DNA of 64,000 nucleotides, taken from the NCBI GenBank assembly GCA_015499995.1, contig JADNRV010000123.1, forward strand, positions 96,003 through 160,002, written 5' to 3'. This document shows positions 37,708 through 64,000 of the stretch, in pieces (positions within the stretch are counted from its first letter, which is position 1; every line of letters starts with the position of its first letter). Below the pieces are notes generated by a model. The model saw nothing but the letters and a program-made list of their open reading frames with translations. It ran no database searches and had not been told where the DNA came from. The stretch comes from Flammula alnicola (Eukaryota; Basidiomycota; Agaricomycetes; Agaricales; Strophariaceae). The translations under genes were made by a program, and so were the position numbers.

Positions 37708-38785
37708 AAGGGTTATGGGACTATATTGCTAGGGATCCCTAGGGATTTTTAGTAGGGATCCCTAGGGACGGAGTAGGGATGCAGAGAGATGGTGTAGGGA
37801 TGCAGAGAGTTGGCGCAGGGACGGTGTAGGGATTGCGGAGGGACAGTGTAGGGATTGCGGAGGGACAGTGTAGGGATTGCGGAGGGACAGTGTAGGGATT
37901 GCGGAGGGACAGTGTAGGGACAGCATAGATATGGTGGCGTGGGGCTCAGTGCACCCCACGGGACACACTCATGTCGCATAGAGACAGTGGTGGCGTGGGG
38001 CTCGGTGCACCCCGCAGGACACACTCATGTCGCGTAGAGACAGTGGTGGCGTGGGGCTCGGTGCACCCCACGGGACACACTCATGTCACATAGAGTCAGA
38101 TTATGCGAAGTGTACATAGACGGTAGCCACCATCAGTGTACTGGAAAATTTGCTTGTCTGTAAGATTTTAAAGTCCAACTCCTTCACAAACATGTTACCA
38201 TAATCAAAGAGGATTCATAAAGTGTTATTGCTATTTCAGTTTGGATAAAGGTGCATTGCACCGCCTACTCTCGGCCTGTTCCACCGCCTAACTCGTCGCC
38301 CGTTTCAGTGCCTACTCACCGCCCGTTCCAGCGCCTACTTGGCGCCCGTTTCAGTGCCTACTTGGCGCCCGTTTCAGCACCTACTCGCCGCGGGCCATTC
38401 TGCGACCAATAGCTGTAGATGATGATACAGCAAAAAGACTTACCGCGATCCAGAAATATGAGCTACAAATGGCCGAAATCCAACTCAAACGGCAGAAACT
38501 TGAGCTTGAAGTCCAAGAAAAGAAGACTGCAGCTGAAATACGCTGTATCGAGGTGAAAGCAGAGGAACGCCGTCATGCGTTAAATGACAGATGACAGCGC
38601 GAGAAGGAGAAACATGAAATTATGATACGTTTCACGGCACTTGTCACTGGATCGAGTAGCAAAAAGAACATGGTAGAGCAGCTAGGAAACGCGTGAAGTT
38701 CAGTTTGTAATTTGGCCTTCAGTACTAAATACACATGCATCTGAACAGTTCTCTGGCTGTGATAACTCTATTTATTCAGGCGCTA
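37708..38785. repeat. Subtelomeric repeat, copy 1 (1078 bp)
   Basis: Begins AAGGGTTATGGGACTATATT and matches 45205-46304 almost base for base. Inside are a 22-bp minisatellite (GGATTGCGGAGGGACAGTGT core, 4 units, ~37830-37920), three 56-bp units containing GGCTCGGTGCACCCC (~37931-38096), imperfect ~24-bp repeats with CGCCCGTTTCAG (~38265-38390), and a decayed coiled-coil ORF. It is cut at GCGCTA by telomere repeats at 38784-38800. Confidence 0.9.
38394..38696 (+). pseudogene. Coiled-coil ORF fossil in subtelomeric repeat copy 1
   Basis: A 101-codon frame encodes KRLTAIQKYELQMAEIQLKR and further heptad-like charged sequence, then one TGA at 38592-38594, then QREKEKHEIMIRFTALVTG to a second stop. 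Upstream the frame falls in repeats and has no start. It looks like the C-terminal coiled coil of a transposon-encoded protein, carried along in the repeat. The parent element is not identified. Confidence 0.5.
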
Positions 38786-38800
38786 GGGTTAGGGTTAGGG
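38784..38800 (+). repeat. Interstitial telomere repeats at a healed break
   Basis: TAGGGTTAGGGTTAGGG joins the interrupted subtelomeric repeat to the Penelope-like element. The orientation matches the real telomere at the right edge of the window. Confidence 0.85.
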
Positions 38801-38865
38801 TAGTGGAGATCCTCACCACCGCCGGAGCAGTGGCAAGGGCGTACCGTTGTGTTGGGGTTCAAGCG

Positions 38866-38933
38866 GGATGCAAAAGGGCTCAAGTCGTCTTGACTTGAAA
38901 GCAACTTTTCGGTTGAACCTCTTCAGTGCATCC
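38866..38933 (-). ncRNA. Hammerhead ribozyme (type I topology), copy 1
   Basis: On the element sense strand: stem I TGCATCC pairs with GGATGCA (7 bp). The conserved box is CTGAAGA (CUGANGA). Stem II is GGT-TCA-ACC, followed by GAAA. Stem III opens AAG/CTT and contains a further TCAAGTC/GACTTGA hairpin. The unpaired T17 precedes stem I, so cleavage is predicted between 38873 and 38872. Every core position fits. Hammerheads are documented in Penelope-like elements, which supports the reading; activity is inferred. Confidence 0.75.
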
Positions 38934-40007
38934 TGGCTCGTATTTGTACTGCCTGAGCATAGGCAGTGTGCCAACGTGTGGGTATTATTGCGCGAGATGG
39001 CGCAATAATGGTGCGATAAGGTGTGTTAAGCCTTGCCGTCCAAGCCGACCCACGGTTCTTAGCTTCCGCCTGGACAGGTGACCACGAATGGACCCATCGA
39101 AGCATGGCATGAAACACGCGGCCGATTACCCGGAACCCATGCATGTACTTTTCATACATGACTCACGTTCCAGCAGCATGTGGTGGGGCCTAACCGGCTG
39201 AACACCGCTGTACTGGAAACAAAAATAGCGTGTGCGTGCGCCACAATTCTAATAATAATAATGCTTCTAAAGAAGCCGGAACCGGCAGCGGTACAGTTTT
39301 CCCACTGGCGACCCCAGGTCTCTAAATATAGCAACACGTGCGTAACCAACGTGTGACAGGCAAGGGGTATCCGGCTTTCCATGCCGTGCCCGCACTAGAC
39401 CGGTTACTACCCGGCCCCGAGCATGTACTCCCGCGCTTAACATTCGGAACCTAGCGCCTAAATGTAATTAGAGCGCGCGTTAACGCACGGGTATATCTCA
39501 ACCACAATACGTCCGCAACGATAAAAACACAAGTCGGACCGAGATGCCCGAAAAGCCCGAAGCTCCCCGAACACCAGCCAGAATAGCAGTGTACGTCCTT
39601 GCCGTCACCCCTGGACTACTCCAACTGTTCCCGATCTCAAGACCGAAGCCTTGCTAAGGTTGGTATATTCTCCGCTCCCACCCCGACGAACTTCCCGCCG
39701 GGTCGCGGTCCCTTAACCACACCACTGCGCTGCACCGCGACTAAGCCGTATCGAACGTTCTGTTCCCCGCACAGCCACCGTTAGGCTACCGTTTGGGCGT
39801 ACTAGTAAGAGATCGAGGGGTGCATCGGCGAACCTTCGCCCCAAGATAGCCGTCACTTGGCGTATCCTCGCGTTTTGATATCTCGAGTACATAGCTCGTG
39901 TTTAAGACCCGAGGGCCCCCTTACTAACCGAAGCTTTTAGGGTACTTGCGTCACTTACAGACATAAACTCTGGGACTCCTGTCGGTAATATTTCAACCTA
40001 AGGGCGC

Positions 40008-40080
40008 CTACAGTCCACTCAGCTGGTCCGATCACTGAAGCGATCATCTGCAGGTTGGGGGATCAAATCCCAATGACAAC
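40008..40080 (+). other. tRNA-like (Pol III box A/B-like) block, copy 1
   Basis: CACTCAGCTGG resembles box A and GGATCAAATCC matches box B at 9 of 11 positions, 43 bp apart. CTGAAG lies between them in a GATC/GATC mini-stem, like an anticodon arm, and TTGGG/CCCAA flank box B. The acceptor stem does not pair, so this is not a tRNA gene. It is antisense to the retroelement. Confidence 0.3.
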
Positions 40081-40288
40081 TTGCACTGTCTTATTTTAGA
40101 ACGAACGACTACGCTCGATACTAACGAATTACCTAGTGCCTGATATCGATTAAGACGAACCAGGGCCTATTACGGTTTCCATACCTTCCATACTACCTTC
40201 GGCTAGGTTTCTGGGTTAACGGTTAGGGTTCGGGTTCGGGTTTGAACCGAGCCTAAAAGGCAAATAGTAAATATCTTCGTTTGGATAT

Positions 40289-42558
40289 TTAACCCAACGA
40301 GGGCTCTTCTCCGAAAAATGTATCGTCGAGGAGTACCAGATCGTCCGCAATAATGGGACTATCTTCTTCAGAATTTTGTAGAGGTAGAGCATGTGTTACC
40401 GAGCTCAATACCTCACGTCTCATCTTACCCACAACATCGCCCAGGTTAGGCAAACGTTTGCGGGAGACAAGCCATCGTGCAGTCGCTAGACCAACTTTAC
40501 GAACGTCGATCACGTCCCTGACCTCCATACTATTACTGGTAAACCCCATGGGGCGCAGATACGTAAGGGAGATATCATCCCAACCGAAGTCAGGATTGTT
40601 CAGGGTATCAACCGCTTCCAAATCTATAGGCAACTTAACAGCCGGAACTGACTGGTCACCGTTCGACTCGTCCACTGACATCGACACTTCCTCCTGGGCT
40701 GGATCCGAAGACCCACTCACGTCAACATCCATCGGTTCGGCCGGAGCCAACCCGCGACGAACATCGAACCCAAGTCCTTCCGCGTACTTTGCAATGGTAG
40801 TATAATCAATACTAGATATATCGGCTCCGTAACGGGACTTAGCGAATTCGTAAAGTCGGGATAACCTGTTCGAGCGAACCTCGGACAGACTGGTTATCCA
40901 GCGTTTAACGACAACATTCTGAAGTTCTCGTAGGTCGAACGCTTCCCAGATCGGGTTGAACTCTGATTTCAGGACCAAGAGATCGATTATGGCTCCTCCG
41001 GTATCCGGTCTTTTGGACCGGTCTCCATTTGCGCTCTCCTCAAAGCGCGCATGCCATCTCCTGTTGGTGTTGTCCTTTAACCATTTGTTTAACAACTTCA
41101 ACGGGTAGCCTCTACTGATGTAGATACTTCGAAGATCTTGGAGAGCCTCGAAGTAATTAGCAGGATTACTACTAAGTACGGCTAGCCGTGACATCTCTCC
41201 CAAGAAGGTGCCCTTTCGGACATCGAGGGGGTGGTGAGATGCGAACGGGATGCGTTCAAGGTGGTTACGTGCTTTGCGGTAAGGTTGCCATTCAAGCCGG
41301 TTGCTAGCCGGGTTGATGTACAACATCATGTCCAGGAATGCGAGATGAAACTCGCTCACGTCCCACGTAAGTTCGTGCTCGTCAAACTTTATGAATGACT
41401 GACAATACTCAAGCGCTTCTTCGCGAGAGTTGGCATACACTAAAGCAAGACCGTCGTCGATAAACCGTGCGTAGAACGCCAGTTTACCTTTGTTTAGCTC
41501 GACGGGAGCCCATTTTTCCTCAAAGACAGCGCCCCACAGGTTAGCAACATCCGGGCTACAAGCTACGCCCATTGCTAAACCGCGCTTCTGCAGGTAAAAT
41601 GTTTGCTCGAACTTAAAATTAGATCCATGCACGCAAGCCGCATCGCTCTATCAGTGAACTTGAAGAGTTGTGTAGATGGGCGTGGATTAGATTTCCTCAA
41701 CCATAGCGATAAAACCGCTTTGATCGCTTCTAAGGTTGGTATCGTTGGATAAAACGCTACGATGTCGAATCCAACGAGGAAAAGTTTGCGTGTAGGATCA
41801 AACGTTGTTTTGGATAACCGAATCGCTAGGTCCTTAGTCCCGCGAAGGACGTAAGGACGCTGTGCTAGGAACGGTTTCAACGTTTTAGATACAAACTTGG
41901 CAGCCGGGTTTACAAGCGCGCTGTGACAAGGCACGATAGGTCTCATCTTTACGGGTTCCTTGTGAATCTTGGGTATACCGTAGAACACAGGCACGATGAA
42001 CTTATCGAGCGCTAACTCGTCCGGGACAAATTGCCGCAAAAAATCTGCCAATTGATCATTACTAAAAATAGCACGAGCGTCCGCCGACAACTCAATGACC
42101 GAATTACATGTTTGTATCAACATGACTTCTGCGTTCTCCCGACTAACTATGGTGTAATTAGCCGCGTCTGAGAGGAGCGCACGTGTGTTGTCTAAGAACC
42201 AGTCCCGAGTTACTATGGATGCACCTAGATTCTTATCCGTTGGCAAAACGATATAGTTATTGCTTCGGAGGAAGTCCTGGACACTCTGGTAGTCTACCAG
42301 CTCGGGGCGTGGTTCGACTTTGAGTAGCTGAGGTACGACGTTGGCACAGAACGAATCTATGTACGACCTTCCGGCAGCAAGTCCATCTTCAATGTATGGG
42401 TGCAATTCGACCGCCTCTGACCGGGGGCGGCGAATATCATAGTCTGGGTTAGGGTAGTGGAGATCCTCACCACCGCCGGAGCAGTGGCAAGGGCGTACCG
42501 TTGTGTTGGGGTTCAAGCGGGATGCAAAAGGGCTCAAGTCGTCTTGACTTGAAAGCAA
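40289..42558 (-). pseudogene. Penelope-like reverse transcriptase, truncated and frameshifted
   Basis: Single-ORF PLE polymerase that would copy element RNA from a telomeric primer. Motifs in order are VPTDKNLG-like N-terminal sequence (YIVLPTDKNLG), PKIHKEPVKMRPIVP, motif A GFDIVAFYPTIP, motif B QKRGLAMGVACSPDVANL, and motif C ARFIDDGLALV with the two catalytic Asp. These are characteristic of PLE rather than LTR or LINE RTs. The frame shifts once near 41630 between motif A (frame ending at 41575) and motif B. The first ~35 codons of the open frame (42558-42455) come from the neighbouring copy 2, so the native N-terminus is missing. The C-terminus is acidic and lacks an endonuclease domain. 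Confidence 0.85.
42446..42454 (+). repeat. Telomere-repeat junction between two retroelement copies
   Basis: GGGTTAGGG (1.5 telomere units) separates the broken 5' end of copy 1 from the 3' end of copy 2. It shows that copy 2 was attached to a telomere-like end formed on copy 1. Confidence 0.75.
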
Positions 42559-42587
42559 CTTTTCGGTTGAACCTCTTCAGTGCATCC
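42520..42587 (-). ncRNA. Hammerhead ribozyme (type I topology), copy 2
   Basis: Identical core to copy 1: TGCATCC/GGATGCA stem I, CTGAAGA, GGTTCAACC, GAAA and AAG/CTT stem III. Predicted cleavage lies between 42527 and 42526. Conservation between copies is uninformative by itself because the copies are nearly identical throughout. Confidence 0.75.
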
Positions 42588-43662
42588 TGGCTCGTATTTA
42601 TACTGCCTGAGCATAGGCAGTGTACCAACGTGTGGGTATTATTGCGCGAGATGGCGCAATAATGGTGCGATAAGGTGTGTTAAGCCTTGCCGTCCAAGCC
42701 GACCCACGGTTCTTAGCTTCCGCCTGGACAGGTGACCACGAATGGACCCATCGAAGCATGGCATGAAACACGCGGCCGATTACCCGGAACCCATGCATGT
42801 ACTTTTCATACATGACTCACGTTCCAGCAGCATGTGGTGGGGCCTAACCGGCTGACCACCGCTGTACTGGAAACAAAAATAGCGTGTGCGTGCGCCACAA
42901 TTCTAATAATAATAATGCTTCTAAAGAAGCCGGAACCGGCAGCGGTACAGTTTTCCCACTGGCGACCCCAGGTCTCTAAATATAGCAACACGTGCGTAAC
43001 CAACGTGTGACAGGCAAGGGGTATCCGGCTTTCCATGCCGTGCCCGCACTAGACCGGTTACTACCCGGCCCCGAGCATGTACTCCCGCGCTTAACATTCG
43101 GAACCTAGCGCCTAAAGACAATTAGAGCGCGCGTTAACGCACGGGTATATCTCAACCAACAATACGTCCGCAACGATAATAGCCTAAGTCGGACCGAGAT
43201 GCCCGAGAAGCCCGAAGCTCCCCGAACACCAGCCAGAATAGCAGTGTACGTCCTTGCCGTCACCCCTGGACTACTCCAACTGTTCCCGATCTCAAGGCCG
43301 AAGCCTTGCTAAGGTTGGTATATTCTCCGCTCCCACCCCGACGAACTTCCCGCCGGGTCGCGGTCCCTTAACCACACCACTGCGCTGCACCGCGACTAAG
43401 CCGTATCGAACGTTCTGTTCCCCGCACAGCCGCCGTAAAGCTACCGTTTGGGCGTACTAGTAAGAGATCGAGGGGTACATCGGCGAACCTTCGCCCCAAG
43501 ATAGCCGTCACTTGGCGTATCCTCGCGTTTTAATATCTCGAGTACATAGCTCGTGTTTAAGACCCGAGGGCCCCCTTACTAACCGAAGCTTTTAGGGTAC
43601 TTGCGTCACTTACAGACATAAACTCTGGGACTCCTGTCGGTAATATTTCAACCTAAGGGCGC

Positions 43663-43735
43663 CTACAGTCCACTCAGCTGGTCCGATCACTGAAGCGATC
43701 ATCTGCAGGTTGGGGGATCAAATCCCAATGACAAC
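43663..43735 (+). other. tRNA-like (Pol III box A/B-like) block, copy 2
   Basis: Second copy of the block at 40008-40080, with box-A-like CACTCAGCTGG at ~43671 and box-B-like GGATCAAATCC at 43715-43725. Confidence 0.3.
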
Positions 43736-44135
43736 TTTGCACTGTCTTATTTTAGAACGAACGACTACGCTCGATACTAACGAATTACCTAGTGCCTGAT
43801 ATCGATTAAGACGAACCAGGGCCTATTACGGTTTCCATACCTTCCATACTACCTTCGGCTAGGTTTCTGGGTTAACGGTTAGGGTTCGGGTTCGGGTTTG
43901 AACCGAGCCTAAAAGGCAAATAGTAAATATCTTCGTTTGGATATTTAACCCAACGAGGGCTCTTCTCCGAAAAATGTATCGTCGAAGAGTACCAGATCGT
44001 CCGCAATAATGGGACTATCTTCTTCAGAATTTTGTAGAGGTAGAGCATGTGTTACCGAGCTCAATACCTCACGTCTCACCTAATGCTATTGGCGCCAGAT
44101 TCGGCCCCCCGAATCCGCCAGTTTCTGCGATGCCG

Positions 44136-56930: not shown

Positions 56931-57820
56931 CAAGAACTGTGCCACTCCAAAAACATGACAGATAGGTTCCCACAGGCCATAACTATTATCCCTGAACACC
57001 ACTAAGATGCACAGTTCTAGAAAACTGAGCATTGCCCCGAACGGTGGTGGCGTTTCAGCGTAAAAGGGCCGTCACGTCAATAGCGGCCGCGTCTTGAACT
57101 GTGCCAGCCTATGTTTTATCTCATGATTTTTTATATATTTTAAACTATTTTTGTGCCAAGCCACTAAGCTGCACAGTTCTTGGTTGTCTCTCAGCGCTCA
57201 GATGGCGTTTTGGCCCTGGGATCGACTAAATATTCACTGAGGCTGATCCAAGAACTGTGCCACTCCAAAAACATGACTGATAGGCTTCTACTGGCCATAT
57301 ACATTAGCAGTAAACACCGCTAAGATGCACAGTTCTTGAAAACTGAGCATTGCCCAAAACGGTGGTGGCGTTTCAGTATAAAAGGGCCGTCACGTCAATA
57401 GCGGCCGCGTCTTCAACTGTGCCAGCCCGTCTCCTATCTCATGTTTTTTTATATATTTCAAACTATTTTTGTGCCAAGCCACTAAGCTGCACAGTTCTTG
57501 GTTGTCTCTCAGCGGTCAGATGGCGTTTTGGCCTTGGGATCGACTAAATATTCGCTGCGACTGATCCAAGAACTGTGCCACTCCGAAAACATGACTGATA
57601 GGTTGCTACAGGTCATATACATTAGCAGTGAACACCGCTAAGATGCACAGTTCTGGAAAACTGAGCATTGCCCCGAACGGTGGTGGCGTTTCAGCGCAAA
57701 AGGGCCGTCACGTCAATAGACAGGGCATCTTCAACTGTGCATAGCTGGATTGTGTGGTGCAATTATCATTCATATATATCAACCCCTATGCCAAACAGCT
57801 AAGCTGCACCATCGATGGTT
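56931..57820 (+). repeat. 318-bp subtelomeric tandem repeat, ~2.8 units
   Basis: Units start with CAAGAACTGTGCCACTCC at 56931, 57249 and 57567, exactly 318 bp apart. Each carries GCACAGTTCT twice as inverse complements of AGAACTGTGC, plus GGTGGTGGCGTTTCAG and GGGCCGTCACGTCAATAG. The third unit diverges after ~57730. Confidence 0.85.
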
Positions 57821-57898
57821 GGCCATCAGTCTCCTAAATATACTCAGCGTAGACGTAGAATACTTCGACGTAGACGTAGAATACTTCAACGTAGATGT

Positions 57899-58265
57899 AG
57901 TTTATATCAACGTTATATCAACATAGACGTAGATTATATCAACGTAGACGTAGATTATATCAACGTAGACGTAGATTATATCAACGTAGACGTAGATTAT
58001 ATCAACGTAGACGTAGATTATATCAACGTAGACGTAGATTATATCAACGTAGACGTAGATTATATCAACGTAGACGTAGATTATATCAACGTAGACGTAG
58101 ATTATATCAACGTAGACGTAGATTATATCAACGTAGACGTAGATTATATCAACGTAGATGTAGATTATATCAACGTAGACGTAGATTATATCAACGTAGA
58201 CGTAGATTATATCAACGTAGACGTAGATTATATCAACGTAGACGTAGATTATATCAATGTAGATA
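57899..58265 (+). repeat. 21-bp minisatellite, ~17 units
   Basis: GTAGACGTAGATTATATCAAC repeats with rare single-base changes. Because 21 is a multiple of three, the array reads as YINVDVD repeats inside a 233-codon frame (57815-58516). The flanks degrade gradually (CTTCAACGTAGA, CTTCAGAATAGA), as expected of replication-slippage DNA rather than a gene. Confidence 0.9.
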
Positions 58266-58396
58266 GACTTAGAGTACTTCAGAATAGACGTAGATTACTT
58301 CAGAATAGACGTAAATTATGTCAATATAGACGTAGATTATGTCAAAATAGATGTAGTTTATATAGACATGTAGCTAAACCAAAGATTGGTCAGATG

Positions 58397-58869: not shown

Positions 58870-58979
58870 TTAGGGTTCATACTTCTGCGGTGCGGTTAGG
58901 GTTGTCTCTCTCCCTATTAGAAAAACCACACCCCTTCCTTGCACAGGTTAGGGTTCTCCTTTATCTCCCAGAGTTAGGG
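58870..58979 (+). promoter_or_regulatory. Cluster of four telobox motifs upstream of the telomere-linked helicase
   Basis: TTAGGGTT occurs at 58870, 58896 and 58948 and TTAGGG at 58974, all in the same orientation, isolated from each other by 20-45 bp. They are not an array, so they may be binding sites for telomere-repeat (Myb-type) proteins in the promoter of the gene at 59121, or traces of past healing. Confidence 0.45.
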
Positions 58980-59120
58980 CTCTCTTATTCTACTTGAAAT
59001 AAAAAAAACCCTCCTGTCTCAAAGGTATGGATGCCTGCCCTAAACTGCCAGATCAGTGATTGCCTGATTAGGAAAGTCTTGTTCTTCTCTTATCAACCAC
59101 CACCATCTATCTGCAACAAC

Positions 59121-62100
59121 ATGAGGTATGACTGTCTTTCCTTGCTCTTTGACATCTGTTGACTTTGTCTGAGCATAGCTCTACCTGTAAACTCTGTGAC
59201 ATGACCTTTCCCAATAGCCAGAAGGGTGGAAAGGCCCTTGCAACACACACCAAACGTCAACACTGTCAGTCTGTGACTGTCTCTAAGACCTGTAAGTTTT
59301 TCCTATGGAATTCTCTTTAGCAAAGTCTGATGCCCTCTACACTAGCCACCAAGGAGCTGCTGGGCAGCTGCGTCCGATCGACATTTTCCGACGTCCTCGT
59401 CTGCTACGTCGAAGACTGCGGCTTCGAAGACACTAACTGGACCAAGCTAGAGGCCCACATCAAGAGGCTTCATACTAATGGGGCCCCCATCTCCTCCCAG
59501 TTTTTCATGTTCCCGGCAATCATCAGCCACAACTCACTTGACGTGAATCGGTTTACTGCGCTTCCCGTCGAGGACGCAGACGAGGACGGGTCAGAATCTA
59601 CTTCTGCATCTGGTGATTCTGGTTCACTTGAACCTGCCACTACCCGAGCGTCTCGCCCCATCACCTCACCTCTCATCATCCCCAGGCCGACACGTAGCAG
59701 GAGTCGTCCATACCGACGTACATCGCCTGCGTCGACACGCAGTTCCTCTCCTGTGCTTGGGCAATCTCTGGCAGTGCTTCTGGCGTCGACACCAGTTCTG
59801 CCGTCTCCACTTGGCCAGGAGCCCTACTCCCGTCCACAGACGCCATCAGAGGAATCGTCGGAGGCCGACAAGGACGTCTCGATGAACGACATTGCGGATG
59901 ATGTCTTCTCGATGGACATTGATCTTCCTGCTGCGCCTGCAAACTTGACTGGCGATCTGGATGACGGGGAGTCTCTGCTCCCCAAGGCTGGCTTGTTGCT
60001 CCTGCGTTTAAGTACACTTGGTGAATTCCCTGTCCCTCTTCTCCTCGTGTGCATAGAGTGTCAGTGTGGTGTGCCTCCCAAGAGTGCTAAAAGCCACGTC
60101 GCCTCTCATGACATCCATCTGACCAAGAAAGAGAAGAAGATCTTGTCTGGATGGTTGGCGGAGACGAAGCTTGCCCAGGAATCGAAGGACGTCTCGACTC
60201 CCAGGCCACGTCAGGCGCCGCTGCAGGGTCTCCAGGTGCAGCCTGGCTTCTCCTGCAAACTCTGCCCATTCTGCGCCCCAGTGAAACGCACGGTCGAGAA
60301 CCACGTCTATGAAGAACACCCTGAGCGCCGGGGCTCCTCTGCTTCAAAGTTCATAACAGCCGCCGCCCTTCAGGCGTACTTTCGCAAACATCCCAACTAC
60401 TTCTCCGTCACTGAATCTCTCGCCGGTCTCGACGTTGATGACCCTTCACTTTGTACATGGAGCAAATCGTTCCTGAGATCGACGCATCTACGCTGGTGAA
60501 TGCGGCCACGTCCGTCAATGAGATCCCTCCTCTCTTGAAGATGACACAGTGGCATGAGCACCTGGCACCCTTTCTCACCGACAAAACCACCATCCATGAC
60601 CTCTGCTCACTGATGGATCTCCCGACGTCGAAGCGCGGTGACGCATGGCTGGGCACACCCCTCGGCAACGTCATTCTTGACTACATGAAGGACATTCGGA
60701 GCAAGGCGAACAAGGCGTCTCTTGGTATCAAATGCCTGCTGATGGAATGCCCAAGGTAAGGTGCAGTTTCTCACTCCAACACCACAGCTAATCGACTTGT
60801 TCTGCGTCACGCAGACCGACGCAACATGGTGAATGGTGGCAGACGCTCTCTGACAATGTCTCGCTTGCAAAGTATGCAAAGCTTCTGCACCGCTGGACCC
60901 ACGCCGTCATCGTTTCCATGAACAGCCATCCATCGGGCTATCAGTTCCCTCTGACGGACGAGATTCGCGAACACGCCAAGACGTTGACGGACATTCTGAA
61001 GTCGACATCCCAGGAGGGAGGCGTCGATGCCTTCCACGATTTCATCAAGCTCATCTTGTATCCCATGGACCGCTCAGAGGACGACGATGACGAGTACAGC
61101 AAGTGGGATGAGCCCATTGAGTGCCTCCTTGCAATCGACGCCCTCCGTGAAGATGGGAACTTCAAAGCCGCCCATGAGATTACCGGTATATTTGCCAAGT
61201 TCTTCTACCACCTCCGTGGCGCAGTTTTATACCAAGGCCTACGCAACAAGTTCAACTTTGGCAACAATGCATACAAGTACGTCTATCCTCACTATTGATC
61301 ACGTCAGCCAGAGGCTGATAAGATTATGTGCAAGATCTGTCGAAAATGAGGCTATGCAAAACCTGCAGCCAGGTGTCCTCTCGCCCTACAATAGCTGTGT
61401 CGACTATCAACGATACGCCACCGCACTTGCTCTCAACACCAACACGCCCCCGACCACTCGCGTCACTGCAGACGGTATGTTCGTCACGTTCAAAGAGCAC
61501 ACGCTCGACATCGCCAAGTGGCGACATGGACTTCATCGTCTTGCAGCAGAGATCAAGTCCGACCTCGCCGAGCTTTGCATGGGACAGGAAAGGCACCTGC
61601 AAATCCCTGATATCGTCCCCGATGACTGGACCAACGAGGTCCGTGGTTATGGCTGGACGAAGAATGCACGCTTCTTGGGTGAAAAGCGTCAGTTACTAAA
61701 GGCTTTGCTTGCTGATCCCGCCGTCAACCTCGCCAGGATCGAAGACAGCAAGTTTACGTTCAACGCCACCCGCTGCTGGGACTTTAGCAATAGATGTGAC
61801 GCAGTCCTCGAGAAGATCCTCCTCTTCGCCTTTCTGACTCCTGGACAAACACCGCGCATCACCGAGTTCATGGATCACAAGTTCGCCAACTCGACTCGCC
61901 CACGCTCGATCTTTAGAGATCAAGACGGACTCTGGCTCGTCACCCGCAGAGTCAAGACAGAGACGCAGACACGCAAGGAGACCTTCCTTCCCATCAAGTG
62001 CCACCCGATGCTGACGCAGTTCTTGGAGACGTACCTCCTTCTTGTCCGACCGGCGCTAGCTGAGTTGGTCCATCACCTCAAGGGCGAAGAGGCGTACCAC

Positions 62101-63950
62101 GTCTACTCAGAGTACATGTGGACCAAGCAAGGTAGGCGCATGACGGAGGACGACACTTACAAGATCCTCAAGACGTTCATGAATACGCACTGCGACATCG
62201 ACGTTGGCAGCCACGACTACCGTCAGATCTGCGTGGAGGTGGGCAGGGTCTTTCTTGGCTCTGGCTTCGAGGTCGATCAGGAGGAGCTCGACGTTCTTGC
62301 CTCTCAGGCTGGCCACACTGCGTCGATGGCTCAACTCAAGTACGCCGCCGAAGCAGGCCGTCTCCCGTCCATGTCCAGCGATCTTCTTCTTCGCTATGGC
62401 AGGATCTCTGAATCGTGGTGGGCCGTGACGGGTTTCAAGCCAAACACCCCTCCCATGCTTCCTCTGCGTTGGAGAGCGCAGAACAGGCTCTCGACAGTAG
62501 GTCTGACTGCCAGCAGCTCTGACGACAGAGCCCAGACTTCATCTGTCACTCCTGCATTTGATGCGTCCCAGTTCCTCGAAGTGCTTACCGCTACGCTGAC
62601 CAACGAAATCCAACAAGTCAAGGTCGGTCTCAGAGACGAAGTGCGCAACGCTGTCGCCGAAGCACTCGCAACCTTCCAGCAAGCCGTCCCGCCAACCAGG
62701 GCACCTCAGGCAGTTCCAGCCGCTGTCTCCGTCGCTGCGCCGCCTCCTAGTGTTTCCGCTACAGTCCCTGCAGACGTCGACGATGACGACATGTATATGC
62801 CTGATCACGCAGAAGTGCTCCCTTTACCTGCACCGTCTGCGCCGTCTACTTCCTCTGTCTCATCCACCCTTCTACCACCTTATGTTCCTGCAGAGAATAC
62901 ACGTGCGTATCTGGAGGGACTCCTCGCTAAGCATTTTGCAGATATCGACCATCCCAAGTTCAAGTCGGAGATGCAGATGCAGGTGGTCGAGATGGCATTG
63001 GCGAGGCAGGAGAACTTTGTCGCCGTCATGCCGACTGGATCTGGGAAGAGTCTTCTCTTCACGCTGCCTCCTTTCAACGAACCTGGCTATCAGACATACG
63101 CCGTCATTCCCAATCGGGCACTGCTTCTTGATCAGGACAGAAAGGCGCAGAACGTCGGGCTTTCAACGCAGACGTGGAGGGTGGACCACCAACAAGTGCG
63201 GTCAGCGACGCAGCTTGTGTTTGTGGCGATTGAGAGCGCCACTCATGTCAAGTTCAATGCGTGAGTCTCACGTCTTCTCTGAATCCTTCTGAGACTAATG
63301 TTACGTCAAAAAAATCCACTCAGGTTCTGGCTTCGACAGGAGAACAAGGCCATTCGTATCGTCGTCGATGAAGCGCACCAACTGCTCACGTCGCGCGAGT
63401 TTCGTTCCCACTTCAAAGACTTGCAACGTCTTGCACAGCTCAAGGTGCAGAAGATCATGGTGACGGCGACGTTGGCCATTCGTCTTGAACACGCCTTCCT
63501 CCAGGAAGCTGGGCTTCCCCTCTCTACTCGCATTATCCGCGCTCCATGTGATCAGCCGCATATCAGCTTCAACCGCATCACCTACTCGACCATGAATACC
63601 AAGGTGGTCCGCCTTGCCATCGACGTGGCGAAACTGCTGGAGACGTCCTTCATGGCTCCTGATCAGTGTGGCATCATCTTCGTCAAGGACCACAAAACCG
63701 CAGACGCACTCCACGCCAACTTCACCCAATGCTCCACTCATTCTGTGCGCCAAGCAACCGACAGACTGCATGACGAGAACGCTTGGAGGGAGGGCCACAA
63801 GAAGTGGATCGCCGCGACTACGACACTCATTCAGGGGATCGACCAGCCGAACGTCGGCGCCGTCATATTCCTTGAGGTGCCCTATGGACTTATCAATTTC
63901 TACCAAGGTTCAGGGCGGACAGGTCGGGACGGACGCAAGTCGTGGTCTGT
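59121..63950 (+). CDS. Telomere-linked RecQ-type helicase with zinc-finger (OrsD-like) and tyrosine-recombinase-like domains, truncated by the telomere
   Basis: Proposed exons: 59121-59125, 59179-~59290 (CKLCDMTF...HTKRQH finger), ~59320-60450, ~60451-60755, 60815-61276, 61335-63260, 63324-63950. N-terminal C2H2 CYVEDCGFEDTNWTKLEAHI and paired fingers CIECQCGVPPKSAKSHVASH and CKLCPFCAP resemble the OrsD family. The middle domain has the tyrosine-recombinase set: Arg in TPRITEF (61855), HDYR (62212), AGH then Tyr nine residues after the His (62314-62343). The helicase has motif I AVMPTGSGKSLLF, DEAH (63367), TATL, TTTLIQGIDQPNVGAVIF and GSGRTGRDGRKS (motif VI). It then reads straight into TTAGGG repeats with no stop, so RQC/HRDC are absent. 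A -1 frame break near 60450 and an awkward second intron suggest a nonfunctional copy or an indel error. Confidence 0.82.
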
Positions 63951-63954
63951 TAGG

Positions 63955-64000
63955 TTAGGGTTAGGGTTAGGGTTAGGGTTAGGGTTAGGGTTAGGGTTAG
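63955..64000 (+). repeat. Telomere: (TTAGGG)n
   Basis: Seven and two-thirds perfect TTAGGG units run to the end of the window, preceded by one imperfect unit (GTTAGG, 63949-63954). The G-rich strand runs 5'->3' outward, as at a right chromosome end. Confidence 0.98.

Follow-up and report, generated by a model that had tools for sequence, protein, structure and literature searches.

The gene at the contig end

Flammula alnicola is an agaric of the Strophariaceae. We analysed a window of 64,000 bases, positions 96003-160002 of contig C28 (160002 bases), from its genome (74.4 Mb, 861 contigs) and found at the right end of the contig a gene (window 59121-63951, plus strand, as are all features given for it below) that encodes, in this order, an OrsD zinc finger, a predicted tyrosine recombinase (YR) and a RecQ-like helicase. 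The public gene model P0062 (BDZ97DRAFT_1925070) matches the locus at 100%.

With splice sites taken from the sequence, exon 1 (59121..59125) holds the start codon, whereas the P0062 model begins at a later methionine. Exon 2 (59179..59291) encodes a C2H2-like zinc finger (CxxC..HxxxxH, read by eye), exon 3 (59346..60448, the 3' end being approximate) contains the OrsD domain (PF12013, about 60041-60319), and exons 4 (60442..60755) and 5 (60815..61276) follow, the latter encoding the N-terminal region that precedes the YR. The 1.9-kb exon 6 (61335..63260) is a single open frame that spans both the YR catalytic domain (61492..62499, placed by alignment and fold models) and the N-terminal half of the helicase, with domain 1 and motif I (62968..63165, PF00270) and the Walker A motif PTGSGKS (63031-63051). 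Exon 7 (63324..63951) runs from the DEAH box through motif VI (PF00271). All introns are GT..AG except the step between exons 3 and 4, which is a frameshift. Applied to the window protein, Pfam gave an OrsD match in exon 3, a DEAD match in exons 6 and 7 and, also in exon 7, Helicase_C. An earlier, sequence-only reading of this DNA had listed recombinase and helicase motifs in one protein, and all of them are present in one frame, the helicase motifs crossing one clean intron of 63 bases (63261-63323) that is spliced identically in P0062. The YR and Walker A lie inside one frame of 754 codons, and the fusion is therefore no artefact of the gene model.

That reading missed that this copy is damaged twice, by a frameshift near 60440-60499, where exon 3 loses its frame and exon 4 continues in a different one, and by a telomere that truncates the gene right after motif VI. 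P0062 masks both faults with introns. The frameshift recurs in an identical copy on contig C30, and the OrsD frame is 392 aa here versus 483 aa and 479 aa in related copies on contigs C39 and C181. From 63952 to 64000, the contig end, the sequence is a TTAGGG array; the window copy thus lacks the RecQ Zn-like region and C-terminus of the C39 copy, which is 95-99% identical by stretch and extends further into a RecQ-like Cys region and then a Cys-rich C-terminus in another frame. The YR exon of C39 has frame interruptions of its own, either real or assembly errors. Together, the frameshift and the loss of its end to the telomere leave the window copy dead.

Active site and predicted fold of the recombinase

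The catalytic residues of the YR are an Arg (TPR, 61855-61857), a Lys (VKTET, 61954-61956), the HxxR motif (62212-62223, with the codon of its variable first position starting at 62212 and the Arg codon at 62221), the His of GH (62314-62316) and the Tyr (62341-62343). The Tyr falls nine residues past the GH His, as the sequence-only reading had it, and the same spacing is found in Xer and lambda integrase. Across 62 aligned proteins, R, K, R, H and Y are kept in 59, 61, 59, 62 and 62, respectively, and in 68, 70, 68, 71 and 71 rows of a wider alignment of 71. The R..HxxR..GH..Y signature claimed for the protein stood in these residues, but its first His did not: that position is Q in 22 of the 62 rows, H in 17, R in 17, K in 3, A in 1, S in 1 and a gap in 1. 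The first residue of HxxR is known to vary among tyrosine recombinases. Of 352 columns in 60 rows, 57 reach 95% conservation or more, and all five catalytic positions belong to these (hypergeometric p=1e-4); the motif match is therefore beyond chance. A pooled conservation test gave p=7e-8, a value that counts the window sequence twice.

Structure comparison with VIA-align returned exclusively YRs, topoisomerases and protelomerases in the top 16 PDB rows of one fold model and the top 24 rows of a second, with about 8-14% identity to PDB recombinases across the aligned parts. The proposal that this segment would fold as a tyrosine recombinase is thus borne out in the models, through VIA-align as a second look, the residues and the predicted secondary structure. 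Foldseek found no match to PDB or BFVD at E 0.001, a PDB sequence search with the YR alone found none at E up to 1, and Pfam assigned the window YR segment to no family at E up to 10. DUF3435 (the Starship captain family) and Phage_integrase are absent among 25 listed of the 39 Pfam families matched by the 62 members, although a distant relationship to them may exist. By modelled fold and residues together, the enzyme upstream of the helicase is a predicted YR.

The helicase half and the age of the fusion

The helicase is a superfamily 2 (SF2) DEAH motor nearest to RecQ, and a profile search with A2 placed every match at E<0.001 within the helicase part. A Zn-like CRR..C..C..C motif was seen by eye in C39 and in the uninterrupted metagenome homologue P0064, and P0077 has a weak PF16124 match (E 0.034); Pfam detected no RQC or HRDC domain in the family helicase.

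Recombinase and helicase had been proposed to share one chain, and 43 of the 61 homologues found with exon 6 have Walker A in the same open reading frame (ORF), a count that includes two altered motifs (PAGENQS in P0041 and RTGDGKS in P0046). Named relatives with the fusion are Agrocybe chaxingu and Infundibulicybe gibba. Several of the 18 homologues lacking Walker A are short fragments. Three gene models from Laccaria and Crepidotus (P0063, P0065 and P0066) have an OrsD match and a YR without the helicase, the OrsD match of P0065 being just below cut-off. The helicase half of P0064, used as sole query, retrieved 77 proteins including P0064 itself. A YR profile built from 60 of the 62 rows (two being too short) matched P0064 and four others among these (P0069, P0077, P0086 and P0129), none of the 77 reversed sequences, and none of the proteins listed with RQC or HRDC domains. 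These four share 16-22% identity with the window segment, each with R-K-R-H-Y complete, and P0069 additionally has OrsD. P0068, the nearest helicase match to P0064 (80%, 760 aa), begins just before the helicase and has no YR. Distances in the YR and in the helicase correlate across 42 sequences (r=0.87; none of 5000 permutations came as high). Because a YR is found in such distant helicases and the two domains diverge together, the fusion looks old and stable, as judged from these sequences. A scan of IMG/VR gave 65 pattern matches and no confirmed relative.

Paralogs and selection within the genome

Seventeen F. alnicola loci were compared, of which 11 have a YR ORF spanning all five catalytic positions, a set that includes the window, the copy identical to it and two pairs that are nearly identical. 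Each of the 11 keeps all five residues, even where identity to the window falls to 22-24%. L034 has the five residues split over two ORFs, L018 and L019 cover the N-terminal part only, L028 and L030 are degenerate, and L035 gave no match. The order YR-helicase also occurs in the lineages C150, C117/C9 and C30:126515/C376; C851 has no helicase within 1.4 kb, C734 gave no helicase match, and the sequence of C678 ends 388 bases past its YR match. Several deeply divergent paralog lineages are thus present in one genome, and many copies are broken.

Between telomeric copies, the ratio of nonsynonymous to synonymous rates (dN/dS) in the YR was 0.058 for C39 (5 synonymous and 1 nonsynonymous changes) and 0.077 for C151 (11 and 3), both from few changes and with gapped codons skipped. 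To the extent of these small numbers, the YR is under purifying selection. Helicase exon 7 gave 0.059 for C39 and had no difference in C151, and the OrsD exon, at 0.20-0.28, is less constrained than the YR. For the whole of exon 6 the values were 0.10 and 0.14, with 0.27 for L031/L032 and 0.11 for L024/L026.

Copies at chromosome ends

Five sites in the genome match the DNA of window 59100-61000, on C28, C30 (100%), C39, C151 and C181, a number that is a lower bound because one genome DNA search missed an existing match on C30. Telomere linkage, as first proposed from the window alone, extends to the five family copies found: all lie close to a terminal TTAGGG array, share its strand and are oriented toward it. 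Telomere-bearing contigs number at least 14, from 100 listed of 108 places with four TTAGGG in a row. All 108 matches are on the contig plus strand and none on the reverse, an orientation oddity of the assembly.

The C28 and C30 copies are identical over at least 8.5 kb and truncated at the same base, and may represent two chromosome ends, two haplotypes or a single end that was assembled twice. In C151, an interstitial TTAGGG array (C151:66483-66518, L034 2977-3012) begins at the window's cut base and displaces about 60 bases of the gene, after which the sequence continues like C39. This suggests the scar of a single break at which a telomere was added and which recombined afterwards, or else a misassembly. 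The C181 copy breaks off where the YR exon begins, and further subtelomeric repeat comes after it.

Four TTAGGG hexamers also lie upstream of the window gene (58870..58979), 142-251 bases 5' of the start codon; the segment that holds the first two is the same in every one of the five telomeric copies. No such cluster was found just 5' of the paralogs on C678, C150, C851 and C117; at C30:126515 there are three hexamers within 288 bases, but these lie over 4 kb upstream of the YR match. These hexamers may be the remnant of an old telomere or a candidate binding site for a telomere protein. Further upstream, a minisatellite (about 57800-58370) is open over long stretches in several reading phases (VDVDYIN repeats), and repeats related to it were found near other chromosome ends.

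In C39 an 898-codon reverse-transcriptase-like ORF with a FIDDG motif abuts the telomere between TTAGGG arrays; the frame is recorded at L033 7306-9999 (-) and L034 7307-10000 (-), and two partial copies (97-98%) lie within window 38784-44081. Pfam gave no reverse-transcriptase match for this ORF, which we take to resemble endonuclease-deficient Penelope-like telomeric retroelements.

The C117/C9 lineage has an OrsD-like match of 25.5 bits (below the cut-off of 26.6) and YR and helicase parts, the YR being 24% identical to that of the window. C117 and C9 have in common an 8.5-kb block (99.4%, sharp ends). Matches at its right edge are restricted to these two copies. Sequence at the left edge, however, runs on across the edge at all 10 other loci compared (L046-L055), so that this edge is no terminus; it sits inside a separate repeat of about 1.67 kb (52 matching stretches), and we withdrew the block as a candidate discrete transposon. 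The 1.67-kb dispersed repeat, beside an OrsD-YR-helicase paralog (L040, C117), is by its look a non-autonomous DNA transposon: in two comparisons its ends matched each other in inverted orientation over 59-87 bases.

Discussion

In our reading, this locus is a RecQ-like helicase gene that is linked to telomeres and has a previously unreported, conserved YR; it is most simply a selfish chromosome-end element, and we give this a probability of about 0.6. By its domains and telomere-proximal position the gene is best filed with the telomere-linked helicase (TLH) family, whose published proteins were compared by description. The protein probably behaves like a site-specific DNA recombinase equipped with a motor of its own: the zinc fingers would bind subtelomeric DNA, the RecQ motor would open duplex or G-rich DNA, and the YR would nick through a 3'-phosphotyrosine link and then rejoin the DNA. 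Recombining chromosome-end DNA in this way, the protein might copy or insert its own subtelomeric unit, as a YR counterpart of the RecQ-carrying transposons KolobokH and AcademH, with its spread aided by ordinary subtelomere exchange.

Two observations bear on mobility. At the loci compared we found neither element ends nor target duplications nor empty sites (the pairs L018/L019, in which L019 is disrupted by another insertion, and L028/L030 showed by eye no inverted repeats or target duplications), and at least four of the telomeric copies also have the upstream subtelomeric satellite in common, as plain subtelomere exchange would produce. Given this satellite and the C117/C9 edge inside a repeat, these data fit duplication by subtelomeric or segmental exchange no less well than transposition, and the self-moving element imagined in the sequence-only reading is not supported so far.

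The same shared surroundings, satellite upstream and telomere downstream, fit a gene that serves the host at chromosome ends, in backup telomere maintenance, subtelomere recombination or the resolution of fused ends, and that spread only by homologous exchange like the Y' elements of yeast. Purifying selection is consistent with such a role, and several TLH-related genes of Ustilago maydis are described as upregulated in telomerase-negative strains (PMC10532341; this and the other papers cited by PMC identifier are represented here by parts of their text). Many copies are broken, however, several deeply different paralog lineages coexist in one genome, and subtelomeric RecQ genes occur in one variety of Agaricus bisporus and not in another, with no telomeric abnormality reported in the available text (PMC7473861). 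We therefore consider a host-serving gene unlikely.

A relic YR, reduced to DNA binding in a protein that acts as a helicase, has a precedent in domesticated Crypton domains (DUF3504), for which this was proposed (PMC3212892), and agrees with the failure of Pfam to recognise a YR in the window protein. DUF3504, however, is described there as being without most of the tetrad, whereas R-K-R-H-Y is retained here both among homologues at 39-72% identity and at 16-22%, which makes a relic improbable. Two adjacent genes or a misassembly read as one would suit the frameshift and truncation patched in the annotated model, but the shared 754-codon frame, the homologues with both domains in one ORF and the co-divergence of YR and helicase leave such an artefact hardly credible.

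More tentatively, and on balance doubtfully, fungal telomere-linked helicases may descend from one ancient OrsD-YR-RecQ protein, a recombinase of chromosome ends by which its gene would be inserted or copied into telomeric DNA; they would then be YR elements at home in the telomere. If the YR works, the chromosome-end role of these helicases would be directly testable through one tyrosine and one mutant, the variability of fungal subtelomeres would gain a candidate enzyme, and YR-RecQ would join DDE-RecQ as a second pairing of a transposition enzyme with a helicase.

Subtelomeric RecQ-like helicases have been described in A. bisporus var. burnettii (PMC7473861), Ganoderma (PMC10817607), U. maydis (PMC10532341, PMC7593156), Fusarium (PMC12857005), Mycosphaerella graminicola (PMC4522978) and Schizosaccharomyces pombe (PMC7840980), and one is named in a legend of PMC8381367. 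The available parts of the first seven papers attribute no recombinase domain to them, and those of A. bisporus are described as having no domain except the helicase core (PMC7473861). What is new here is a predicted YR in a family of telomere-linked helicases, which the portions of literature compared have treated as helicases only. The sequence-only reading knew of no such system, and likewise searches of open-licence papers for YRs with RecQ, TLH, Crypton or OrsD listed no account of a YR-RecQ fusion.

Like the TLH genes in our comparison set (U. maydis UTASa/UTASb, Magnaporthe TLH1, S. pombe tlh1-4, Fusarium tlh and those of A. bisporus var. burnettii), the F. alnicola gene encodes a RecQ-like SF2 helicase, occurs in several copies by telomere repeats and is commonly truncated. 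As in U. maydis, where the OrsD-bearing UTASb can sit 5' of the helicase UTASa (PMC10532341), OrsD precedes the helicase; unlike the TLH genes as described in the texts available, it has a YR. With Xer, Cre and phage integrases it shares the fold, as modelled, and the R-K-(H)-R-H-Y site, and differs in its variable position II and its fused zinc fingers and helicase. With Cryptons it shares a eukaryotic YR and the lack of inverted repeats, but their short terminal direct repeats were not found at our loci, and helicases, present here, have no occurrence in the main text of PMC3212892.

The AcademH transposase is DDE-type. KolobokH and AcademH resemble the F. alnicola gene in joining a transposition-type enzyme to a RecQ-type helicase in one element (PMC9587614, PMC10799480), and a RecQ helicase is also named for Academ (PMC3627910). 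They differ in that their upstream enzyme is DDE-type where ours is a predicted YR, and in having no mentioned telomere linkage in the text available ("telomer" has 0 occurrences in PMC10799480). The closest precedent for the gene described here is the KolobokH transposon, found in fungi only, in which a RecQ helicase lies downstream of a DDD/E transposase (PMC9587614).

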